The notes under the pieces are model-generated. The model made no database searches. It saw nothing but the letters and a program-made list of their open reading frames with translations, and was not told the origin of the DNA. A stretch of 64,000 nucleotides of DNA, from contig JAUXNQ010000012.1 of the NCBI GenBank assembly GCA_030682715.1, positions 1 through 64,000 on the forward strand, given 5' to 3'. Shown in pieces: positions 5,141 through 19,810 of the stretch (within the stretch, counting starts at the first letter, position 1; every line of letters starts with the position of its first letter). This DNA comes from Methylotenera sp. GTDB lineage: Bacteria > Pseudomonadota > Gammaproteobacteria > Burkholderiales > Methylophilaceae. The translations under genes and the position numbers were made by a program.

Positions 5141-7468
5141 TTAGCCTTTTTGCTTGATAGCGAGCACTGACTGGTTGCGCAGGGTGCGCAATAAGGAAAG
5201 CTGCCTAGTTGAAACCTGCATGCTATTGGGCTGCTCCATATCTGCGTAAAACATGCCCAACGCTTTGTTGTTGACCATAATCGGAAGCAGTAAAAAGCTT
5301 TGTGATGAAACAGTTTGCCTGTACCACTGCGGAATTTTAGCCGTTACGTTCTCAGCCGCAATATCCTCCAGCATTAAGTCTGCCCCTTTACTAATGGCAA
5401 GGTGGAACACATCTGGTGCAAAGTCTAAACTAAACCGAAATTTCTTTAATGCAATATCAATGTCTTGACCAAATCCAAAACGTGCGGCCATTTGATTGTT
5501 TTTGATATCTCTTATCAATAAGAGCGTGCGGTTAAAGCCCATGCCACGGTGCATGGTTTCTAGCACCATCTGCATGATGTCATTGAGTTGGTGATCTTCA
5601 ATCAGCGTGTTCGTTACTTCTTGAATACCTTCGGTGAGAATAGACTCAGAATCAAGTTTTGCTGAGTCACTGTTCTTGTCATTGGGGTGTGCTAAGTTGA
5701 TGCCCAGCGATGCTAGCTCAGTCTCTTCAGCAGTTTTGTGTGATGCCTCTGCTCTTGCTCCAATCCAAGCGTTAACTCGCGTCATCAGCATGCTTTGTGA
5801 AGTGTTGATGCCAATTACTCTCGCCCGCGCCGCCAGCTCATCTAAAGCACTCTCCATTGATTTACGTAGCTGTTGCTCCGAAACGCTAAGCGCATGTTCA
5901 TAGCGTGTTGCTAGTTGCTTGAGGGCTTTGGATTTATCGGCGCTATTGCCGTTGCTGGCAATAGCGCATAGCTCATTTGCAAGGTTAACCGTCAACGATA
6001 AACTTTCTAGCTCACCACTCGGTTTGATGACTTTATCCCCGCTTAATTTACGCATACCAGCGATTAAGCGTGGAGGAAAGTTCCAACTTTTAGCGACGCC
6101 TATTCCCAGCTCGTTGTAGGACATGCCTAGCACTTTAACCGAGGCTTTATCCTCGCTATCGCCCTGAGCAACTAAGCGAGAAACCTGTTGGCTTTCTTCA
6201 AAGAAGTAAAAACTGGCGAGCAGCTTGCCTAAATTGCGGAACATAGAACAAATGATAGCTTCTTCTGCATTTCTAACATGGCTAGTGGGGGCTAATTGTG
6301 CCGCCACAATACCCGCAAAGAATGATGCTAGTACATCATCTTTCAGTTGTGATGCCTGTGCTTTATTCTGCAAAAAATCAAGCAATATCAAAGACATTGC
6401 CACATTGCGTACTGTTTCAAAGCCTAAAATTACCACGGCTTTTGAAATGGTATTGATATGGCCGCCAAATTGACCATAAGTGACTGTATTCACCAGTTTT
6501 AATAATTTATTAGTCAGTGCAAAGTCATTCAAAATACTTTGTGCTAATGCATTGTTGCTGGCTGAGTCATCGTCTGCCAGTCGGTTGATTTCGCTAATTG
6601 TGTGTGACAAAGCAGGGAAATCACTTTTACTACGCATGCGGCGTAGTAAAAAATCCATCGTACTGTGAGCATCCACTGGCTTATGCTCACCTTGTACGGG
6701 GTTTAAGTAATCTTGCAGGGCCTGCTTCATCGCGTTAGCATCGGCGTATCGGTCTTCAGGCGCTTTGCTCGTTGCTTTAAGAATAATGCTTTCTAGCGCT
6801 TCATCAAGATGTATCTGTAGGACCTGAAGGGGCACGCCAGTCTTTGGGAGCGCTGTTGGTTTTTTTGCTTTTTCGATGAATGGCAACCCTGTCATCATCT
6901 CGTGCAACAACACACCTAATGAAAAAATATCTGCGGAGACCGTGGCTTTATCGCTAGAAATTATCTCGGGTGCGTCGTAGGGCGTAGCGGAGTGGTTTTG
7001 AGGGCTATTTGTTGCAAGATTAGCCATACCTATGCCCATCATCATGGGCATTTGATCTTCTGTAATGATAAAGTTTTCTGGTTGTAGGTCTAAAGATATC
7101 ACGCCTTGAGCGTGGGTGTAACTAACACCCTCCAGTACGTCTGCAATCATTTGTACTGCAAGAGTAGCCGCGAATGGCTGGGATGATTTTAATTGTTGCG
7201 ACAAAGTGATGCCGTTAACAAATGCATAAACTAGATAAGGAGCGCCATCATGCTCACCAGCATCTAGCAAGGTGACAATGTTCTTATGTTGTAATTTGCT
7301 TACAATGCGTACCCGCTGTAATAGGGCATCTAAATGCTGGCCATTGTGTGGCAGTAGTTTAATAATCACCTCGCGACCCATGTGCGGATCAAGCGCTAAA
7401 TAGACAGCATTTTGTTTGCTTTCATTAAGCTTTCGTAGTATTTCAAAGCGGTCTATTTTATTAATCAT
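5141..7468 (-). CDS. Degenerate Ser/Thr kinase-HDOD-GAF signalling protein
   Basis: A 775-residue three-module protein. Residues 1 to about 255 follow the Ser/Thr kinase fold: a glycine-poor loop (KLNESKQNAVYLA), a beta3 lysine (EVIIKLL), and a catalytic-loop equivalent reading ISLDLQPENF instead of HRDLKPEN. The DFG position reads MGIGMA. With DFG lost and the catalytic-loop Lys changed to Gln it is probably a pseudokinase. Residues about 275-480 form an HDOD domain (LLRRMRSKSDFPALS, ILGFETVRNVAMSL), a module that regulates signalling proteins without HD hydrolase activity. Residues about 600-770 resemble GAF. The start ATG has AGGA seven bases upstream. It is transcribed away from the c-di-GMP riboswitch operon, across an intergenic region of about 520 bp. 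Confidence 0.85.
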   Translation of the reverse strand: MINKIDRFEILRKLNESKQNAVYLALDPHMGREVIIKLLPHNGQHLDALLQRVRIVSKLQHKNIVTLLDAGEHDGAPYLVYAFVNGITLSQQLKSSQPFAATLAVQMIADVLEGVSYTHAQGVISLDLQPENFIITEDQMPMMMGIGMANLATNSPQNHSATPYDAPEIISSDKATVSADIFSLGVLLHEMMTGLPFIEKAKKPTALPKTGVPLQVLQIHLDEALESIILKATSKAPEDRYADANAMKQALQDYLNPVQGEHKPVDAHSTMDFLLRRMRSKSDFPALSHTISEINRLADDDSASNNALAQSILNDFALTNKLLKLVNTVTYGQFGGHINTISKAVVILGFETVRNVAMSLILLDFLQNKAQASQLKDDVLASFFAGIVAAQLAPTSHVRNAEEAIICSMFRNLGKLLASFYFFEESQQVSRLVAQGDSEDKASVKVLGMSYNELGIGVAKSWNFPPRLIAGMRKLSGDKVIKPSGELESLSLTVNLANELCAIASNGNSADKSKALKQLATRYEHALSVSEQQLRKSMESALDELAARARVIGINTSQSMLMTRVNAWIGARAEASHKTAEETELASLGINLAHPNDKNSDSAKLDSESILTEGIQEVTNTLIEDHQLNDIMQMVLETMHRGMGFNRTLLLIRDIKNNQMAARFGFGQDIDIALKKFRFSLDFAPDVFHLAISKGADLMLEDIAAENVTAKIPQWYRQTVSSQSFLLLPIMVNNKALGMFYADMEQPNSMQVSTRQLSLLRTLRNQSVLAIKQKG

Positions 7469-7771: not shown

Positions 7772-7800
7772 TTGACAATCTGTAAAAATCTACTGATACT
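7772..7800 (+). promoter_or_regulatory. Sigma70-like promoter of the riboswitch operon
   Basis: TTGACA at 7772-7777 is a perfect -35 box. After 17 bases, GATACT at 7795-7800 matches four of six -10 positions. The predicted start near 7806-7808 lies just ahead of the first riboswitch stem at 7813, which supports both calls. Confidence 0.65.
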
Positions 7801-7812
7801 CGGAGAACATTG

Positions 7813-7903
7813 CATTTGAAAAAGGCAAACTCAGCTGAAAGGCGAGGGCGCAAAATCACCGGTCTAAGGGGCAGTAGCTCTAGGATAGCGGGAGTACCAG
7901 ATG
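7813..7903 (+). ncRNA. Cyclic-di-GMP-I riboswitch (GEMM-I) aptamer
   Basis: The conserved GEMM-I blocks occur in order: GGCAAAC, a GAAA tetraloop, GGGCGCAAA, CACCGGTCTAAG and AGGATAGCGGGAGTACC. The closing stem pairs CATTTG (7813-7818) with CAGATG (7898-7903), with one G-U pair. The aptamer lies about 100 bases before a histidine kinase/c-di-GMP enzyme operon. Downstream, ACTCCC at 7932-7937 can pair either with GGGAGT inside the aptamer (7890-7895) or partly with the Shine-Dalgarno GGGAG at 7992-7996, which suggests translational control. No terminator with a T-run is evident, and the direction of switching is an inference. Confidence 0.9.
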
Positions 7904-8001
7904 TGCGGACTTTCCGTATCTCTCACAAGTGACTCCCCCATTCTATTGTCAGCTCCCTTTAGTGTTTTAGAAGCGAGATTAGTACTTTTGTGGGAGATAA
8001 C

Positions 8002-9621
8002 ATGTTATTGCACCAGCCTACCGTTGATGCCTTGATTGACAGCATGATCCCGAGCGCCGATGAGGTTCAGTCGCGTAAGGATTTTCTTGAGTTCAACGAG
8101 CAAGACTCTCAGCTACTTAAAGAGCTGGGGCCTTTGCTTGCGCCACTTGAAGATACCTTTGCCAATTTACTATATCAGCATTTAGATGCTCACCCACAAA
8201 TCGTTGCTAGTCTTAGCAATCCTGAGCAGTTGTCACAGCTTAAACAAAAACAACGAGAATATTTTAAACAGGTCTTTGCTGGCGATTATGGCCCAGACTA
8301 TATCAAAAGTCGCTTGCGTGTTGGCATCACTTATCAGCAAATAGGTTTAGAGCCGCGCTGGTATCTAGGAGCATACAGCAAATACTTATCTTGGGTGCTC
8401 CCAGAAGTGATGCGCTTAGTAGATAACGATGCTGAACGTTTTTTAGCATATTCAAAAGCGATTACCAAAATCGCCATGTTCGATTCCGAACTTTCTCTAT
8501 CTGCTTATTTCCATGCTGATCATGAAATGTTACGCCTGCTCGCGCAAGTGTTTGAAAGTAATCTAGAAGCGGTGATCATCGCTGACGTGAAGGGCCATAT
8601 GCTGCACGCTAATAAATCGGTGGCTAAAATTACAGGGTATGCTTCAGAAACGCTGATTGGCACATCGATGCAAAACCTGTTAGCAGAACTGGAGCCAACG
8701 CTATATCAGGATTTGTGGACGACAGTCATTGGTGGCGGCCAGTGGCAAGGTGAAATCTGGTTAAAGAATAAGCAGGGTGATGATTACTTGGCATGGATGA
8801 ATATGAATGCCGTTAAAGATGCGGCTGGAAAAGTAACGCAGGTGATTGCTGAGTTTTCTGATATTACTGCCTTTAAACAAACACAGGAAGCATTGGTCGA
8901 GCGTACAGAGGAGCTTGCTAACTCCAATCGTGAGCTAGAGCAGTTTGCCTATGTTGCATCACATGATTTACAAGAACCTTTGCGCATGGTGGCTAGCTAT
9001 ACACAGTTGTTGGCAAGGCGATATAAAGATAAGCTGGATCAGGATGCAAACGAATTTATCGGTTATGCGGTAGATGGCGCTACGCGCATGCAGGCGCTGA
9101 TTATTGATTTGCTGACCATGTCTCGCATTGGCACGCATGGTAAGCGGATGGAGCTTTGTGACACTTCAGTTGCCTTAGAGCGCGCGGTGTCTAATTTGCG
9201 TCTGGCGATAGAGGAGTCAGGCGCTGTCGTTAACCGTGACCCTATGCCTAGGATAGAGGCGGATGTTTCGCAACTCACGCAGTTGTTCCAGAATTTAATT
9301 GGAAACGGTATTAAATTTCGTGGAGACACTTCACCCATCATCCATGTAGGTGCCGAGAAAAAAGAGGGTGAGTGGTTATTTTCAGTACGTGATAACGGGA
9401 TAGGGATCGCGCCAGATTTTTTTGAGCGTATTTTTATTATATTTCAACGCTTGCATGGTAAACATGAGTATCCAGGTACGGGGATTGGGCTGTCTGTATG
9501 CAAGAAAATTGTAGAGCGGCACGGTGGAAAAATTTGGATAGAATCTGAAGTGGGCAAGGGCGCAGTTTTTTATTTTACCTTACCTATACATCATGGGGAA
9601 AGGAAACATCATGGAGAGTGA
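8002..9621 (+). CDS. Protoglobin-PAS sensor histidine kinase
   Basis: A 539-residue soluble hybrid sensor. Residues about 1-165 match the globin-coupled sensor (protoglobin) fold, including [20 protein letters not shown], where the usual proximal heme His is Tyr. A PAS domain follows (about 180-300). Next comes a HisKA-type dimerisation helix with the phospho-acceptor in [13 protein letters not shown], then an ATPase domain with [14 protein letters not shown] and [11 protein letters not shown]. The listed ORF begins with GTG 7990, but GGGAG at 7992-7996 sits five bases before ATG 8002, so ATG 8002 is the better start. It is the first gene after the c-di-GMP riboswitch, and its end overlaps the response regulator gene. 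Its partners are probably the REC proteins that follow. Confidence 0.88.
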
Positions 9622-10063
9622 AGTGGGCAGACAGGTTGAATTTTTATTGGCTGAGGATAATCCCGGTGACGTTAGACTAACGCAGGAAGCATTGCGTGAA
9701 AGTAAGATAAGCAATAATCTTAATGTGGTTAAAGATGGCGTGGAAGCCTTGGCGTTCTTGCGTAAAGAAGGTCAATATGCAGATGCACCGACCCCTGATG
9801 TTGTATTGCTTGATCTTAACTTACCTAAAAAAGATGGACGCGAGGTGTTGGCTGAAATTAAATCAGACCCTCAACTTAAACGCATTCCAGTGGTAATCGT
9901 CACTTCTTCTGAAGCGGAAAAAGATATTCTGCGCACTTACGATTTACATGCAAATTGCTACGTAAGTAAACCTGTGGATTTAGACCAGTTTATTAAAGTG
10001 ATTCAGGCGATTGAAAGTTTTTGGCTGACTATTGTTAAATTACCATCGGACATTAAAGACTAA
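9611..10063 (+). CDS. Rcp1-like single-domain response regulator
   Basis: A 150-residue stand-alone REC domain. It shows the acidic pocket (LAEDNPGD), the phospho-acceptor Asp ([13 protein letters not shown]), the switch Thr/Ser ([11 protein letters not shown]) and Lys (YVSKPVD). The form with EDNPGD and KKDGREVL is that of Rcp1-like regulators that pair with phytochrome-type histidine kinases. ATG 9611 is preferred over 9593 because AGGAA lies six bases upstream. It overlaps the kinase gene by 11 bases, so the two are translationally linked. There is no output domain, so it may act as a phosphorelay shuttle or by protein contact. Confidence 0.9.
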
Positions 10064-10081: not shown

Positions 10082-11812
10082 ATGAGTAGCACGGCACTGA
10101 CCATCTTGCTTGTTGAGGATAATCCAGGAGATATTCGCTTGGTAAGAGATCTGTTGGCCGCTGATCAAAGTGAAAGTTTTACTTTAGTGACGGCGGATCG
10201 CCAAGAGACTGCGTTGGCTATCTTGGATAGTCAGGATATTACAGCGATATTACTTGATTTAGAGTTACCAGATGGCAGTGGTCTTAATACGCTATTGAGA
10301 ATACATGCTAACGCGCCTAGCATACCGATTGTTGTGCTGAGCAGTACTGCCGACGAGAGTCTTGCAGTGAGATCGGTGCAGCAGGGTGCTCAGGATTTTC
10401 TGGTAAAGGGTTATGTTGATGCACACCAGCTGACGCGTTCTTTGCGTTATGCGATTGAGCGTAAGCGAACGGAAGAGCGGTTAAATCACCTTGCTCATCA
10501 TGATAGTTTAACTGGCTTATCTAACCGCAAGCATTTTTACGATACCCTTAAAAATTCAGTTGCTTTAGCACGCAGGCACGAAACCAAGCTGGCATTGTTG
10601 CTGCTTGATCTGAATGGATTTAAGTCTATTAATGACACCTTAGGTCATTATGTTGGTGATTTGCTGTTGCAGGGCGTTGCCCATCGCTTGCGTGAATGTA
10701 TGCGCGAAACGGATTGTGTAGCCAGAATTGGTGGTGATGAATTCACCATGATATTGACTGACATACAGGATGAAGAGGATGTTATTGCCGCAACTAGCAA
10801 AATTATGGAAGCGGTAGGACGTCCTTTTCTGATCGATGGGCGTGCATTAGATGTTGGCGTTAGTATCGGCATTGGCATTTACCCTACAGATGCTGATAAC
10901 TTGGAGTCTTTAGTACGAAATGCTGATGTTGCGATGTATCAGGCAAAAGCAGATACTGGTATACAAAATACTTACCGATTCTTCTCGGCCAGTATGAATG
11001 ACAGGGCCACCGAAGATCGTGTGTTGCTAAGTGAGTTAGCGACCGCGATAGCGGAAGGCGAATTTGTGATTAACTACCAACCCCAAGTGGATGTAAAAAC
11101 TGGCCAAATTAATGGGATGGAGTCATTGTTGCGCTGGCAACACCCGACACGTGGTTTATTGTTACCAGGTGCGTTCATGACTGTATTGGAGAGTTCTCCA
11201 CTTATTTTAGATGTTGGCTTATGGGTGTTGCGTAACGTATGCGCACAAGGCAAAACGTGGCGTGAGTCCTCTGATGTGCCTTTGGTGCTGTCTGTCAATC
11301 TATCGTCACGACAATTGCTCCAGAGTGACTTTGCAGAGCAGGTTGCTAAGGTGTTGGCTGAAACAGGCTTGGCGCCCGATTGCTTAGAACTTGATATCTC
11401 TGAGCATGCATTATGGGAAGACGAAGCGTGTGCTTTTAAACAAGTGACAAAGCTTAATCAATTAGGGGTGAGGTTAGCCCTTGATAACTTTGGTAACGGT
11501 CGCGCTTCATTTTATTACCTACGCAAGTTTCCTTTCCACGCGATTAAGCTGGATCGTAGACTTACGCAAGCAGCTTCTGCCACGACCGATGGCGCCGATA
11601 TAGCGCGTGCCGTGATTCAGGTGGCGCATGTATTCCGTATGAAAGGTTTGGCGGGTGGGGTAGAGACGGCAGCACAACTCGACACTTTGCGTAATCTTGC
11701 TTATGACGATGCTCAGGGCTATCTGTATTGTCATCCATTACCTTCTGACGCTGCCACAGCATTGCTCGAACGTGGGCAACATCTGGGTCCAATTGCGGTA
11801 GCATCAGCATGA
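10082..11812 (+). CDS. REC-GGDEF-EAL protein with degenerate EAL domain
   Basis: A 576-residue protein: REC (about 5-125, phospho-acceptor in ILLDLELPDG), GGDEF (about 140-300) and EAL-like (about 315-565). The cyclase site ARIGGDEF and the inhibitory RETD five residues before it are intact. The EAL domain has ESL instead of EAL, LALDNFGNG instead of DDFGTG, KLDRRL instead of KIDQSF, and AGGVET instead of AEGVET. At least one metal ligand and the glutamate of AEGVE are lost, so it should not hydrolyse c-di-GMP. The TTG at 10064 is rejected as start because a perfect AAGGAGGT lies at 10071-10078 before ATG 10082. It is co-transcribed with the kinase and regulator and is probably a phosphorylation-controlled diguanylate cyclase. 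Confidence 0.9.
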   Translation: MSSTALTILLVEDNPGDIRLVRDLLAADQSESFTLVTADRQETALAILDSQDITAILLDLELPDGSGLNTLLRIHANAPSIPIVVLSSTADESLAVRSVQQGAQDFLVKGYVDAHQLTRSLRYAIERKRTEERLNHLAHHDSLTGLSNRKHFYDTLKNSVALARRHETKLALLLLDLNGFKSINDTLGHYVGDLLLQGVAHRLRECMRETDCVARIGGDEFTMILTDIQDEEDVIAATSKIMEAVGRPFLIDGRALDVGVSIGIGIYPTDADNLESLVRNADVAMYQAKADTGIQNTYRFFSASMNDRATEDRVLLSELATAIAEGEFVINYQPQVDVKTGQINGMESLLRWQHPTRGLLLPGAFMTVLESSPLILDVGLWVLRNVCAQGKTWRESSDVPLVLSVNLSSRQLLQSDFAEQVAKVLAETGLAPDCLELDISEHALWEDEACAFKQVTKLNQLGVRLALDNFGNGRASFYYLRKFPFHAIKLDRRLTQAASATTDGADIARAVIQVAHVFRMKGLAGGVETAAQLDTLRNLAYDDAQGYLYCHPLPSDAATALLERGQHLGPIAVASA

Positions 11813-13854
11813 AAATACTACTGGTAGAAGATAATCAAGGTGATGCGCGGCTCCTAGAGATTATGCTGCGTGAGGTACAGACAGCATGTACGCTCACACA
11901 TGCGGATACCTTAGGAAAAGCCATCTCGCATGCATGCTTAATGCAGTTCGATATTATTTTGCTTGATTTATCACTACCAGACTCGCAAGGCAGTAGTACC
12001 TTTTGGAGTTTGCATGAAGTCGTGTCAGACGTTCCTATTGTGGTGATGACAGGCCATGATGATGAAGTGCTGGCGAATGAGTTAGCACAGGCGGGGGCGC
12101 AAGACTACTTGGTGAAAGGTAGTGTGGATGGACGTTGGCTATTGCGTGTGATGCGATATGCCATTGAGCGTAAGCGCGCTGAGCTTCAATTGCGCCAGAG
12201 CGAGGCTAAAGTACGTGCCCTGTATGAGGCTGTACCAGATTTACTCTTGTTTCTTGATTTAGAAGGCCGCTTCTTAGAGTGTAAACCTGCTAAAGATTTT
12301 CAAACGCATATTGAGCCTGAGCATTTCTTAGGCAAAACGATACACGAGGCATTGCCACAGGAGGTTGCCGATCAGGCGATGGTCTGTTTGGAAAAAGCCG
12401 TTGATGGTAAAGGGATTGCCTCTTTTGAATACCAGATGACCATGTCTCACGGTGTTTCTAACTACGAATCTCGTTTTATTCGAGCCAGTGAAGAGCAGGT
12501 GTTGTGTATTGTGCGAGATATCAGCGAGAGTAAACGCACGCAACAGCAGTTACATTTTCTTGCACACTATGACACCCTGACAGGGTTACCTAATCGCCTA
12601 TTGTTTAATGAAAGTCTGCAACAAGCGCAGACGCATGCTAATCGCACGAGTGACACAATTGCGGTAATGTTTATCGATCTTGACCGATTCAAAAATATCA
12701 ATGACACATTAGGCCATGGTATCGGCGATAAACTCCTGCAACAAGTCAGTAATCGTATTGCACTTTGTATCCGTGAGTCAGATACCGTCGCGAGAATGGG
12801 TGGTGACGAGTTTGCTGTCGTTCTTGTAAACGTGCGAGAAGAAAGGGATGCTGCGGTAGTGGCAGAAAAGATTATCGATACATTGTGCTTACCGTTTGTG
12901 GTCGGTGACCATGAGGTGTTTGTTGGCGCCAGTATTGGTATCACACTTTATCGTCCTGGTCATGATGATCGAGATGTATTGTTAGAAAAAGCGGATGTGG
13001 CGATGTACCACGCGAAGGATCGCGGCCGTAATAATTACCAGTTTTATTCTTCAGAGATGGATGCAGTTGCTTACGAGCGTTTGGTGATGGAAAATCACTT
13101 GCGTCACGCGTTAGATCGCAATGAATTTGTTTTATATTACCAGCCGCAAATCGCAGTTGAAGGTGGCAGTGTCACTGCAGTTGAAGCCTTGTTACGATGG
13201 CAGCATCCTGAGCGCGGCTTGGTCGCACCAGGTGAATTTATTTCACTGCTTGAGGAAAGTGGTTTAATTGTTCCCGTTGGTAAGTGGGTGCTAAAGACCT
13301 CATGTCAACAAGGGCGCGCTTGGTATGATGCAGGTACGCCCGTGCGTGTGGCTGTTAATCTTTCTGTGCGCCAGTTTAAACACCCAGGCCTTGTGGCGGA
13401 TATTGCAGAGACTTTGGCCGAAAGTGGGCTGCCGCCAGAGCTGTTGGAGTTGGAGCTCACCGAAAGTATGTTTATGGACAGTGCGACTGGTGATGTTAAC
13501 AAACTCATACAGCTTAAAGCTTTGGGTGTATCTCTCGCCATTGATGACTTTGGTAGCGGTGCATCATCTCTTGCTTATCTTAAAGACTTCCCAGTAGATA
13601 CGCTTAAGATATGTCAGTCTTTTGTGCTGAACCTGCCTCATAATAATGATGATAGTGCAATTGCCAGTGCTGTACTTGGTTTAGCGCAAGCGATGAACTT
13701 CACTAGTATTGCTGAAGGTGTTGAGAATGATCAACAGGCTGATTTCTTGCGAGAGCGGCGTTGCGATTATTTCCAAGGCTTCCTATTTAGTAAACCTTTG
13801 CCAGTAGAAGAGTTGAATCTGCTGTTAAACGGCGGCAAACTGTCCGGCAGTTAG
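11809..13854 (+). CDS. REC-PAS-GGDEF-EAL cyclic-di-GMP enzyme
   Basis: A 681-residue protein with REC (1-120, Asp in IILLDLSLPDSQG), PAS (about 130-245), GGDEF (about 250-410; ARMGGDEF with inhibitory RESD) and EAL (about 420-675). EAL residues appear retained: VEALLRW, VNLSVRQF, ELTESM, IDDFGSG, the Lys of LKICQSF and AEGVEN. The usual KID reads KIC. The start overlaps the previous stop as ATGA, so the gene is the fourth in the riboswitch operon. It may make or degrade c-di-GMP under control of its receiver domain, which would feed back on the operon leader. A strong palindrome 38 bases after the stop may end the operon. Confidence 0.92.
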   Translation: MKILLVEDNQGDARLLEIMLREVQTACTLTHADTLGKAISHACLMQFDIILLDLSLPDSQGSSTFWSLHEVVSDVPIVVMTGHDDEVLANELAQAGAQDYLVKGSVDGRWLLRVMRYAIERKRAELQLRQSEAKVRALYEAVPDLLLFLDLEGRFLECKPAKDFQTHIEPEHFLGKTIHEALPQEVADQAMVCLEKAVDGKGIASFEYQMTMSHGVSNYESRFIRASEEQVLCIVRDISESKRTQQQLHFLAHYDTLTGLPNRLLFNESLQQAQTHANRTSDTIAVMFIDLDRFKNINDTLGHGIGDKLLQQVSNRIALCIRESDTVARMGGDEFAVVLVNVREERDAAVVAEKIIDTLCLPFVVGDHEVFVGASIGITLYRPGHDDRDVLLEKADVAMYHAKDRGRNNYQFYSSEMDAVAYERLVMENHLRHALDRNEFVLYYQPQIAVEGGSVTAVEALLRWQHPERGLVAPGEFISLLEESGLIVPVGKWVLKTSCQQGRAWYDAGTPVRVAVNLSVRQFKHPGLVADIAETLAESGLPPELLELELTESMFMDSATGDVNKLIQLKALGVSLAIDDFGSGASSLAYLKDFPVDTLKICQSFVLNLPHNNDDSAIASAVLGLAQAMNFTSIAEGVENDQQADFLRERRCDYFQGFLFSKPLPVEELNLLLNGGKLSGS

Positions 13855-13892: not shown

Positions 13893-13928
13893 TAATACCT
13901 AAACTTTTAGTATAAAGTTTAGGTATTA
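13893..13928 (+). terminator. Perfect 15-bp palindrome after the signalling operon
   Basis: TAATACCTAAACTTT-tagtat-AAAGTTTAGGTATTA is a perfect 15-bp stem with a 6-base loop. It is AT-rich and followed by a few T residues. It can act as a terminator for the upstream operon. It ends 13 bases before the ATG of the next gene and could also cover that gene's ribosome binding region or be an operator. Confidence 0.55.
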
Positions 13929-14162: not shown

Positions 14163-16463
14163 ATGATTAAAAAGTTATTCAATAAGCAATTTGTTATCAA
14201 TCGCTACCGACTAAGCGTTAGTCAGCTGATTATATTTCTATTGCTAACATTTTTTGCTTGTTTAATAATGCTTTCGGCTACCAAAGCTGAAGATACCCTC
14301 AGAATAAATAGCCATTATGGACAAGTTATACTGACGCCTAATGAAGCTGCCTGGCTTAAAAACAACCAAAACATTCATGTAGCAGTTAAACATGGGTGGA
14401 TGCCCATTGAGTTCAAGTCTGAAGGTAGTAAGCTTAGAGGCATCAGTGTAGATTACCTCCAAGCGCTAAGTAACGTTTTTAATGTTAACTTTGTTCCTTT
14501 GGACTACTCCGAAAATATAAGCCCATTTTCAGTTGAAATCATTTCTGGTATTACTGGCAATAGTGTCAAACATCAAGAATTTAGAATACAACCTTATCCG
14601 TTTTTAACTTATCAATTTGCAATTTATGTCAATAAAAATCTAAAGGATGGTCAGAAAATTGTCTCGATGGACGATTTAAATGATAAACGGGTTGCTGTAT
14701 TTAAAAATGGTCCTATTGCAAAACAAATCGCAGAAAGTTATCCAGAAATTAAGTTGTTGTATGTTGATATAGCAGATGAAGCGTTTGAAGAGCTCCGTTT
14801 GGGTCATATTGATGCGTACATCGGTAATCAAATCATTATTGATTATCATCTAATTGTACATCGATTAAATTTTGTAGAAAAAGCAGGGATGACCCCATTT
14901 AGTTCAACAGTATCAATGGCGGTTAGAGATGATCTTCCTGAGTTAGCCTCAATCTTAAATAAAGGTCTGCAGGTTATTGGTACCAACAACCAAGAGATAC
15001 TTGAGAATTGGAACATTTCAGAAAGTAAATATGACCGTTGGATGTTGCCAATAGTCATCGTTGTTTGTATTACGTTAATTTGGGCGGGTATTAGGATATT
15101 TAGATTGAAACAATCTATGAGGATTCAAAATCAAGCAGCGCAAAAGACGATATGGCATCAAGCCAATTATGACTATTTAACAGATTTGCCAAACCGCCAC
15201 TTGTTAGATAGCCGATTAAAGCAGGCGATGGATAAAGCTGATCAGTCGTTGTCACCAATAGGTATCCTATTTATTGATTTAGACAATTTCAAACATGTCA
15301 ATGATACTGCGGGCCATTCGATTGGGGATATGCTCATTAAAGAAGCGGCTGCAAGAGTGACTCGGTGCGTTCGGTCTTATGACACAACCGCACGATTTGG
15401 TGGTGATGAATTTATGGTTATCATGTCTGATTTTGATAACGAACAGGCACTGGAGAAAACCTCACAGAAAATACTGGCTGAAATTCAAAAGCCATTTGAA
15501 ATTGATGGTGAGCTATTTTATATATCAGCAAGTATCGGCCTTACTATCTATCCAAACGATACTTCAAATCCCGAAGCGTTATTTAGCTACGCGGATCAAG
15601 CCATGTATGAGGCTAAGAAGTTAGGTCGTAATCGATTCCAGTTTTTTAAAGCATCTATGCAATTTGACTCTATTAATAGACTGGCATTAATAAACGACTT
15701 AAGAGACGCTATCGCTTATCGACAGTTTGAACTTTATTATCAGCCGATCATGAGTTTGGGCACACAACAGGTGTTAAAAGCAGAGGCATTAATCAGATGG
15801 AATCATCCGATAAAAGGCATGATTAACCCACTGGAATTTATTTCAGTTGCCGAAGAGACTGGATTAATCGATGAAATAGGTACCTGGGTGTTCAATCAGG
15901 CACTACATGATATTAAGCTTCTGCATACACAATATTCATTAGACTTTCAAATCAGTGTGAATGTTTCTCCTCATCAATTTATTGAGTCAGAGCGATTATT
16001 AGCTTGGAAAGACTTATTGGCTAGTGAGGGTGTCGAAGGTCGTAGCATTTGTATTGAAATTACGGAGGGCTTATTGCTGCACCCCAGTATGTCTGTTGTC
16101 AATACAATATCTGCTTTACGAGAATCTGGTGTCCAGTTCTCTATTGATGATTTTGGTACTGGCTATTCTGCACTTGCATATTTAAATAAGTTTGAAATTG
16201 AGTATGTAAAAATAGATCAATCGTTTACTCAAAATCTTCAACCAAATAATTACGATGCCATTCTTTGTGAGGCCATCATTAGTATGGCGCATAAACTTGG
16301 GATGAAAGTGATTGCTGAAGGTGTTGAAACAGAGGCACAACAAAACTTATTAAACAGTTTTGAGTGTGATTATGGGCAAGGCTATTTGATTGCTAGACCC
16401 AAACCTTTTACAGAATTTATACAATTTTTATTCGAAATGCGAAATCAACAGTCATTAAATTAA
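14163..16463 (+). CDS. Periplasmic SBP-type sensor-GGDEF-EAL membrane protein
   Basis: A 766-residue inner-membrane protein. An N-terminal helix (about 20-42) is followed by a periplasmic solute-binding-like domain (SBP_bac_3/PBPb type, about 60-290), a second helix (MLPIVIVVCITLIWAGI, about 298-317), GGDEF (about 335-495) and EAL (about 505-755). The cyclase motif ARFGGDEF and inhibitory RSYD are intact, as are EALIRW, ITEG, IDDFGTG, KIDQSF and AEGVET. It probably converts binding of an amino-acid-like or other small periplasmic ligand into a change in c-di-GMP. It lies directly after the DUF3820 gene. Confidence 0.9.
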   Translation: MIKKLFNKQFVINRYRLSVSQLIIFLLLTFFACLIMLSATKAEDTLRINSHYGQVILTPNEAAWLKNNQNIHVAVKHGWMPIEFKSEGSKLRGISVDYLQALSNVFNVNFVPLDYSENISPFSVEIISGITGNSVKHQEFRIQPYPFLTYQFAIYVNKNLKDGQKIVSMDDLNDKRVAVFKNGPIAKQIAESYPEIKLLYVDIADEAFEELRLGHIDAYIGNQIIIDYHLIVHRLNFVEKAGMTPFSSTVSMAVRDDLPELASILNKGLQVIGTNNQEILENWNISESKYDRWMLPIVIVVCITLIWAGIRIFRLKQSMRIQNQAAQKTIWHQANYDYLTDLPNRHLLDSRLKQAMDKADQSLSPIGILFIDLDNFKHVNDTAGHSIGDMLIKEAAARVTRCVRSYDTTARFGGDEFMVIMSDFDNEQALEKTSQKILAEIQKPFEIDGELFYISASIGLTIYPNDTSNPEALFSYADQAMYEAKKLGRNRFQFFKASMQFDSINRLALINDLRDAIAYRQFELYYQPIMSLGTQQVLKAEALIRWNHPIKGMINPLEFISVAEETGLIDEIGTWVFNQALHDIKLLHTQYSLDFQISVNVSPHQFIESERLLAWKDLLASEGVEGRSICIEITEGLLLHPSMSVVNTISALRESGVQFSIDDFGTGYSALAYLNKFEIEYVKIDQSFTQNLQPNNYDAILCEAIISMAHKLGMKVIAEGVETEAQQNLLNSFECDYGQGYLIARPKPFTEFIQFLFEMRNQQSLN

Positions 16464-16559: not shown

Positions 16560-17765
16560 ATGGCTATTGTCCAAATCCAGATGCATCAGTCGAACTCAAC
16601 TAAGGGTTGTGCCTTATTCAACCTTGGTTTTCGCCCCTTCTTTTTAGGCGCAGGTATTTTTGCCATTGTATCCATTGTTTGGTGGATGTTGATTTACAGC
16701 TCGCACAGTTTTGTGCAAATTCATTCGATTACCAGTGCCCAGTGGCATGCACATGAAATGCTATATGGCTATAGCTTGGCTGTGGTTGCAGGCTTCTTAT
16801 TAACCGCAGTAAAAAATTGGACTGGCATACAAACGCTTCATGGGAAGCCATTGATGGGTTTATTTGCATTGTGGGTTGGCGCGCGCGTACTGTTTTTGTT
16901 TGGTACAAGTTTGATGCTGTGGGCTGCAATCGTAGATTTATTATTCGGTTTAGTGTTGATTCTATCCATTAGCCAGCCGATCATCCGTGCAAAGCAATGG
17001 CCTCAGCTTGCGGTAGTAGCTAAGGTATCCTTGCTGTGGACAGGCAATGTGGTTTTTTACTTAGGTTACTATGGCGTATTGCAGGATGGCATGCTGTACG
17101 CAATTAACGGCGCTGTTTTATTGCTGGTGAGTTTAATTTTGATGATAGGTCGCCGCGTGATTCCATTCTTTATTGAGCGCGGTGTGCAAGAAAAAATAAA
17201 AATTCAACATCATAAGTGGTTAGATATCACCATTTTAGTGACATTTCTTGCTTTGTTTATCAATGAGATTTTTTATAGAAACCCTCAATTAACACCCTAT
17301 TTGGCTTGCGGCTTGTTTCTAATCAATGGTTATCGTTTGTATCATTGGCATACCCGTGGTATATGGCGTGTGCCATTGCTATGGAGTTTATATTTATCTG
17401 CATGGATGATTAATGTAGGCTTTTTGGTTTATGGCGTGCAAGCTTTGTTTTCAATTCCTCTTGTATTGGTGATGCATCTCTTTACGATAGGCGGGATAGG
17501 TCTAATGAGTATCGCGATGATGGCGCGAGTAGCATTGGGCCATACAGGGCGTGATATCAGAAAATCATCTATCTGGCTGGTGTTGGCTTTTATTGCCATT
17601 ATATTGAGCCTGCTGTTTCGTGTATTCGCGCCTATGCTAGACATGCAGCTTTACTCTAGTTGGATTTTTGTTTCAGCGCTCTTTTGGATACTTGGTTTTG
17701 TAGTTTTTGTGTGGATTTATACGCCTATATTGGTAAAACCTAGAGTTGACGGTGCTCCTGGTTAA
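16560..17765 (+). CDS. nnrS: NnrS family heme-copper membrane protein
   Basis: A 401-residue polytopic membrane protein with about 12 hydrophobic helices. The opening FNLGFRPFFLGAGIFA and the WHAHEMLYGY motif are hallmarks of NnrS. NnrS proteins bind heme and copper and help cells resist nitric oxide and nitrosative stress. AAAGG lies nine bases before the ATG. No denitrification genes are in the window, so the role here is probably NO tolerance. It converges on the DUF4186 gene. Confidence 0.9.
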   Translation: MAIVQIQMHQSNSTKGCALFNLGFRPFFLGAGIFAIVSIVWWMLIYSSHSFVQIHSITSAQWHAHEMLYGYSLAVVAGFLLTAVKNWTGIQTLHGKPLMGLFALWVGARVLFLFGTSLMLWAAIVDLLFGLVLILSISQPIIRAKQWPQLAVVAKVSLLWTGNVVFYLGYYGVLQDGMLYAINGAVLLLVSLILMIGRRVIPFFIERGVQEKIKIQHHKWLDITILVTFLALFINEIFYRNPQLTPYLACGLFLINGYRLYHWHTRGIWRVPLLWSLYLSAWMINVGFLVYGVQALFSIPLVLVMHLFTIGGIGLMSIAMMARVALGHTGRDIRKSSIWLVLAFIAIILSLLFRVFAPMLDMQLYSSWIFVSALFWILGFVVFVWIYTPILVKPRVDGAPG

Positions 17766-19510: not shown

Positions 19511-19810
19511 TATAAATGCAAACGTCCTATTGCCTTAACGCTAGTATTAGCACTTATGCATGTATAAAACCATTTAATAATGGAATGTAAACGGATAGAA
19601 TGCACGAGTTAGTGCAGTGAATAAGGTAGTAAGCAAGCTGAAGATTTATCTGAACTTGAGATTTATCTGATTTTGCCGATGAGTCATCATTGACCTAGTG
19701 TGATTCTACCGATATAGATTAGGCGCACTAACCACCCATCGAGTGCATCCATCGTGATGGTGCAATGCTATTCAACTTCGCATTTTTCAGCAAAGCGTGA
19801 TAACGATTTG

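Follow-up and report, generated by a model that had tools for sequence, protein, structure and literature searches.

Does a c-di-GMP riboswitch that precedes genes for c-di-GMP enzymes place those genes under the control of the messenger that their own products make or degrade? This question is raised by a 5' leader in the window, by which we mean the whole stretch of 64,000 nucleotides of Methylotenera DNA that was analysed. Riboswitches for c-di-GMP are usually output devices, and many of the described c-di-GMP-I copies precede genes for motility, chemotaxis or adherence; the window copy, in contrast, heads an operon of c-di-GMP enzymes. The presence of GEMM-I elements upstream of GGDEF and EAL genes was already remarked on in the work that identified the ligand (Sudarsan 2008, as cited in PMC7266159), and a later review describes c-di-GMP riboswitches as rarely controlling c-di-GMP metabolism (PMC6366702). 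The element described here is a riboswitch of an ordinary class in an uncommon and conserved feedback context, of which the globin sensor is the less expected part.

The RF01051 (c-di-GMP-I, GEMM-I) covariance model matches positions 7814-7901 of the + strand (69.8 bits, E-value: 1.3e-11). The match covers the full model (1-87 of 87) at about twice the gathering score of 35 bits, and it is the single RF01051 match in the whole Methylotenera assembly (2.45 Mb, 67 contigs searched). The original prediction had placed a GEMM-I aptamer at 7813-7903 and proposed a search with the Rfam model; this search returned a significant match rather than none, and the predicted span is correct if the matched region is extended by the P1 stem (7813-7818 with 7898-7903). 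The parts of the aptamer are as follows.

7814-7901 (+): c-di-GMP-I (GEMM-I) aptamer, located with the RF01051 covariance model; contact columns invariant in 10 leaders
7813-7818 (+): P1 5' strand, CAUUUG, partner of 7898-7903
7898-7903 (+): P1 3' strand, CAGAUG, partner of 7813-7818

This element shares with Vc1 and Vc2 of Vibrio cholerae (RF01051) its sequence, its P1-P3 layout with a GNRA tetraloop and its position in a 5' leader. It also has equivalents of G20, A47 and C92, the ligand contacts of Vc2 (PMC4744006). When the window bases are aligned by hand to the Vc2 numbering, the predicted contacts are G7824 (G20), A7852 (A47) and C7897 (C92), all of which are invariant in the 10 leaders. 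The named structure is kept as well, with 95.4% of cells paired across the 10 orthologous leaders (48.5% or less with slid partners) and two-sided changes in seven pairs of the leader structure. For P1, 98.3% of cells are paired in the 10 leaders; one pair has changed two-sidedly and two have changed one-sidedly. Judged from its sequence, the aptamer is a c-di-GMP class I riboswitch with c-di-GMP as its predicted ligand.

The gene content proposed for the operon (a histidine kinase, a single receiver, a REC-GGDEF-EAL protein and a REC-PAS-GGDEF-EAL protein) was confirmed by domain search. The four genes overlap or are closely spaced, and a terminator-like hairpin follows the last of them.

8002-9621 (+): globin-coupled histidine kinase, Protoglobin-PAS-HisKA-HATPase_c, 539 aa (Pfam: Protoglobin 4.6e-40, HisKA, HATPase_c)
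9611-10063 (+): single-domain response regulator (Response_reg 6.8e-20); the start is probably 9611, overlapping the kinase end
10082-11812 (+): gene 3, REC-GGDEF-EAL; GGDEF intact with RxxD, EAL degenerate (DNFG, GGVE)
11809-13854 (+): gene 4, REC-PAS-GGDEF-EAL; intact GGDEF plus RxxD, most EAL residues kept (KID to KIC)
13893-13928 (+): intrinsic-terminator-like hairpin at the operon end; stem of 15 pairs, against 0.0 expected in shuffled sequence

Both enzymes have the GG(D/E)EF signature and the RxxD inhibitory site in 10/10 orthologs. In the EAL domain of gene 3, DDFG is replaced by DNFG in 10/10 orthologs and AEGVE by GGVE (SGVE in the ortholog from genome G177). Because this degenerate EAL domain accompanies an intact GGDEF domain, gene 3 probably encodes a diguanylate cyclase. 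In the EAL domain of gene 4, DDFG and AEGVE are intact and KID has become KIC in all 10 orthologs; the E(A/T)L motif is present in nine of the 10, the motif scan having found none in genome G110. On these motifs, gene 4 probably encodes a phosphodiesterase (hydrolase) or a dual enzyme.

Several other genes lie close to the operon. An SBP_bac_3-GGDEF-EAL protein is encoded on its 3' side (14163-16463, +), followed by NnrS, and the spacing and content of these genes vary among relatives; they were left out of the operon. On the other flank is a GGDEF-EAL-like protein (340-2562, +) that resembles gene 4 at 35%. The divergent protein kinase-HDOD-GAF gene (5141-7468, -) adjoins the operon in Methylotenera relatives too.

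Across 187 Methylophilaceae genomes, GEMM-I was found in 39 (69 matches) and the kinase in 12. In 10 of the 12 kinase-bearing genomes, a riboswitch is located about 100 nt 5' of the kinase, with the same genes further 3'. Among named relatives, Methylotenera mobilis 13 has the operon closest to that of the window (kinase 95% identical), and the pairing spans two genera, the most distant kinase (61% identical) coming from the other genus. A pairing that persists in 10 of 12 genomes and down to this level of identity is not due to chance, and its conservation in 10 genomes of two genera makes a regulatory link between riboswitch and operon very likely. The remaining two genomes, G051 and G049, have the start of the operon and no GEMM-I by their globin-kinase genes. 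As the kinase tree gives no firm order for its deepest branches, the riboswitch and the kinase may have been paired once or more than once.

The original prediction overlooked that GEMM-I recurs 5' of GGDEF and EAL genes in this family. A GGDEF or EAL gene is present in the same-strand run 3' of GEMM-I in 17 of the 69 family leaders (a count that includes G144, taken from the operon comparison); ten of these leaders belong to the globin-kinase operon and the rest to about four other gene types. G177, from another genus of Methylophilaceae, has 13 GEMM-I riboswitches, compared to one in the window genome. Outside the family, the order kinase-regulator-enzyme is common in several lineages, mostly with other sensor domains. 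Ten related loci from outside Methylophilaceae were scanned and no GEMM-I was found in them, and the idea that the riboswitch accompanies the kinase beyond the family was rejected on this result.

Two other readings of the aptamer bear on this link. GEMM-Ib riboswitches have the same fold as GEMM-I, and a single nucleotide, A20, switches their selectivity to c-AMP-GMP (PMC6456294), such that the window aptamer might sense this dinucleotide instead of c-di-GMP. Position 20 is, however, a G in the window and in all ten leaders, which argues for c-di-GMP as the ligand, and the enzymes of the operon are of the c-di-GMP type with ordinary GGDEF motifs. Specificity for c-AMP-GMP was rejected on G20 and is very improbable. 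The other reading, in which a decayed and non-functional aptamer sits 5' of the operon by chance, would be in keeping with the single copy in the window genome and with the occurrence of GEMM-I in only 39 of 187 family genomes. It is very improbable and hard to reconcile with a score of twice the cut-off, with ligand contacts that are invariant over 10 genomes, with pairing that is kept through sequence changes and with the location of the leader before the same operon in two genera. A functional c-di-GMP-I riboswitch is the reading followed here.

The elements through which this riboswitch could act on the kinase gene are listed below.

7772-7800 (+): sigma-70-like promoter, TTGACA-17 nt-GATACT (10/12 matches); similar hexamers in the aligned Methylotenera leaders
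7905-7917 (+): short conserved hairpin GCGG/CCGU 3' of the aptamer; 100% of cells paired in 10 leaders
7917-7924 (+): predicted anti-Shine-Dalgarno 1, UAUCUCUC; in the window fold with forced aptamer its partner is GGGAGAUA
7933-7937 (+): predicted anti-Shine-Dalgarno 2, CUCCC, in 8/10 leaders; could alternatively pair with GGGAG of the aptamer
7992-7996 (+): Shine-Dalgarno GGGAG of the first gene (kinase), 5 nt 5' of the ATG at 8002; conserved

A -35/-10 pair with an RNA start shortly before the aptamer had been proposed, and the promoter at 7772-7800 agrees with this proposal and is recognisable in the Methylotenera leaders. As a promoter scan of the leader region found two sites where about 1.4 are expected by chance, this conservation is the better evidence for it. 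From the position of the promoter, the RNA is predicted to start at approximately 7806-7808, a few bases 5' of P1. No intrinsic terminator was found between the aptamer and the kinase ATG, and intrinsic transcription termination was therefore rejected as the expression platform.

In folding calculations with the aptamer and P1 forced, the unpaired fraction of the Shine-Dalgarno sequence is 0.00-0.17 across the 10 leaders. Without this constraint, the sequence is open to at least 0.5 in four of the 10, including the window, where openness falls from 0.52 in the free fold to 0.00 with the aptamer forced; in the other six leaders the free fold closes the site as well. With the aptamer forced, the site is closed by UAUCUCUC (7917-7924) in the window and by CUCCC in most relatives. 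It is plausible that CUCCC would alternatively pair with the GGGAG of the aptamer 3' strand, giving an exclusive choice of partners. Changes in the anti-Shine-Dalgarno helix are one-sided only, with no two-sided change in the 10 leaders. These predicted folds tip the balance toward translational control in which c-di-GMP would close the Shine-Dalgarno sequence, making the riboswitch an OFF switch. Shuffled linkers also often close the site (mean openness of 0.08-0.17 under the forced aptamer) and, together with the six closed free folds, this means that the folding supports the OFF direction weakly. The same riboswitch might instead be an ON switch, with c-di-GMP raising operon expression, either because the Shine-Dalgarno sequence is freed or because Rho-dependent termination or decay is prevented. 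The lack of an intrinsic terminator leaves the output mechanism not fixed, the closed site in the free fold of six leaders would fit, and there is a precedent in Vc1, which increases the expression of gbpA although neither a terminator nor an anti-Shine-Dalgarno sequence is visible (PMC4744006). The forced aptamer, however, does not open the site in any of the 10 leaders, and where the site was initially open it becomes closed; an ON switch is on the whole unlikely. The OFF switch is the direction used in the model below.

The kinase has a sensor that the original prediction overlooked. Its N-terminal domain is a Protoglobin domain (Pfam, 4.6e-40), and a tyrosine occupies the haem-ligand position of this domain. 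The AlphaFold2 model of the globin domain (mean pLDDT 85.1) matches AfGcHK (5ohe; TM 0.82/0.89) and HemAT. On this modelled protoglobin/GCS fold, combined with HisKA and HATPase_c, the kinase is a globin-coupled sensor histidine kinase. AfGcHK and NmpU likewise join a protoglobin sensor to a histidine kinase; the window kinase differs from them in the PAS domain that separates these two parts and in Tyr111, which takes the place of the proximal His. The register of the proximal His was fixed by alignment with HemAT (1or4), which puts Tyr111 (codon 8332-8334) at this position. Among the orthologs, the residue is Tyr in the window and in five close Methylotenera relatives, His in five and Gln in one; among 31 related globin domains, it is His in 29, Leu in one and Tyr in the window.

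The dN/dS of the Tyr-bearing globin domain is about 0.07, equal to that of the His-bearing pair, with synonymous sites near saturation. This value indicates purifying selection, and decay of the Tyr-bearing globin was rejected. In NmpU, changing the proximal His to Ala (H96A) leads to the loss of haem binding and of most autokinase activity (PMC11841059). Given this precedent and the Tyr at the haem-ligand position, labelling the kinase an oxygen sensor would exceed the evidence. A literature search of titles and abstracts identified no paper on globin-coupled sensors with Tyr at the proximal position. The His-to-Tyr change, which is conserved in six genomes, is in effect an experiment of nature on whether a kinase with a globin sensor still functions when its customary haem ligand is missing. 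A second protoglobin is encoded in the same genome (L220, contig C55, 2977-4563, -), with PAS, GGDEF and the start of an EAL domain, and this protein has the proximal His. The remainder of its EAL domain is encoded in a frame that overlaps the first, which may reflect a frameshift or an assembly error.

Taken as a whole, the locus is in all likelihood best explained as a riboswitch-controlled four-gene signalling module whose amount is set by c-di-GMP. The proposed sequence of events is as follows. The c-di-GMP class I riboswitch in the 5' leader would control the four genes as one signalling module, such that the c-di-GMP level would determine how much of it is made. With ligand bound to the aptamer, the anti-Shine-Dalgarno sequence would be available to pair with the GGGAG of the kinase gene and close it, and the downstream genes would be coupled to the leader via translation or message stability. 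The globin-coupled kinase would pass phosphate to the free receiver and to the receivers of both c-di-GMP enzymes. In this model, c-di-GMP binding, phosphotransfer to the enzymes and the coupling of the downstream genes are what we infer, the enzymes being presumed partners of the globin kinase from their shared operon.

A loop through c-di-GMP is likely, with its sign set by whichever enzyme dominates. If the cyclase is dominant the feedback would be homeostatic, and if the hydrolase is dominant the operon would act as a self-reinforcing switch; as gene 3 is cyclase-like and gene 4 is hydrolase-like or dual, the sign is not fixed. The original prediction had proposed such feedback at the RNA level. 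The architecture that makes it possible stands, with the pairing conserved in 10 genomes of two genera, whereas ligand binding, direction and sign are still a matter of inference. More tentatively, the operon may be a two-input module in which c-di-GMP sets the amount through the RNA switch and the globin kinase sets the activity, with a globin that, in one Methylotenera clade, has exchanged His for Tyr and binds haem differently or not at all, and is yet under selection.

A parallel in arrangement is Cdi-2-2 of Clostridioides difficile, a c-di-GMP riboswitch that also heads a two-component system operon, cmrRST (PMC8844915). Cdi-2-2 differs in having a class II aptamer and in raising transcription, and cmrRST encodes two response regulators and a kinase but no c-di-GMP enzyme. 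Operons of other bacteria share the kinase core, the single-receiver regulator and the REC-GGDEF-EAL protein in the same order; these mostly have other sensor domains, and GEMM-I was found in 0/10 of those tested. A literature search on Methylotenera riboswitches returned nothing relevant. While the riboswitch class is known, its conserved link to a globin-sensor operon and the unusual haem pocket look new. Here, in two genera, the riboswitch precedes a complete sensing and turnover module, and this pairing makes RNA-level feedback on c-di-GMP directly testable.

Two further features of the window are located 3' of the operon. NnrS (16560-17765, +) is a membrane protein of nitric-oxide-linked gene sets, and its location within about 13 kb 3' of the riboswitch is kept in five relatives; this neighbourhood might suggest a context of NO instead of O2. 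A Methylophilales-1 RNA (RF03011, 98.2 bits), in keeping with the placement of the organism in Methylophilales, is present at 19607-19733 (+), with an internal loop that is longer than that of the model.
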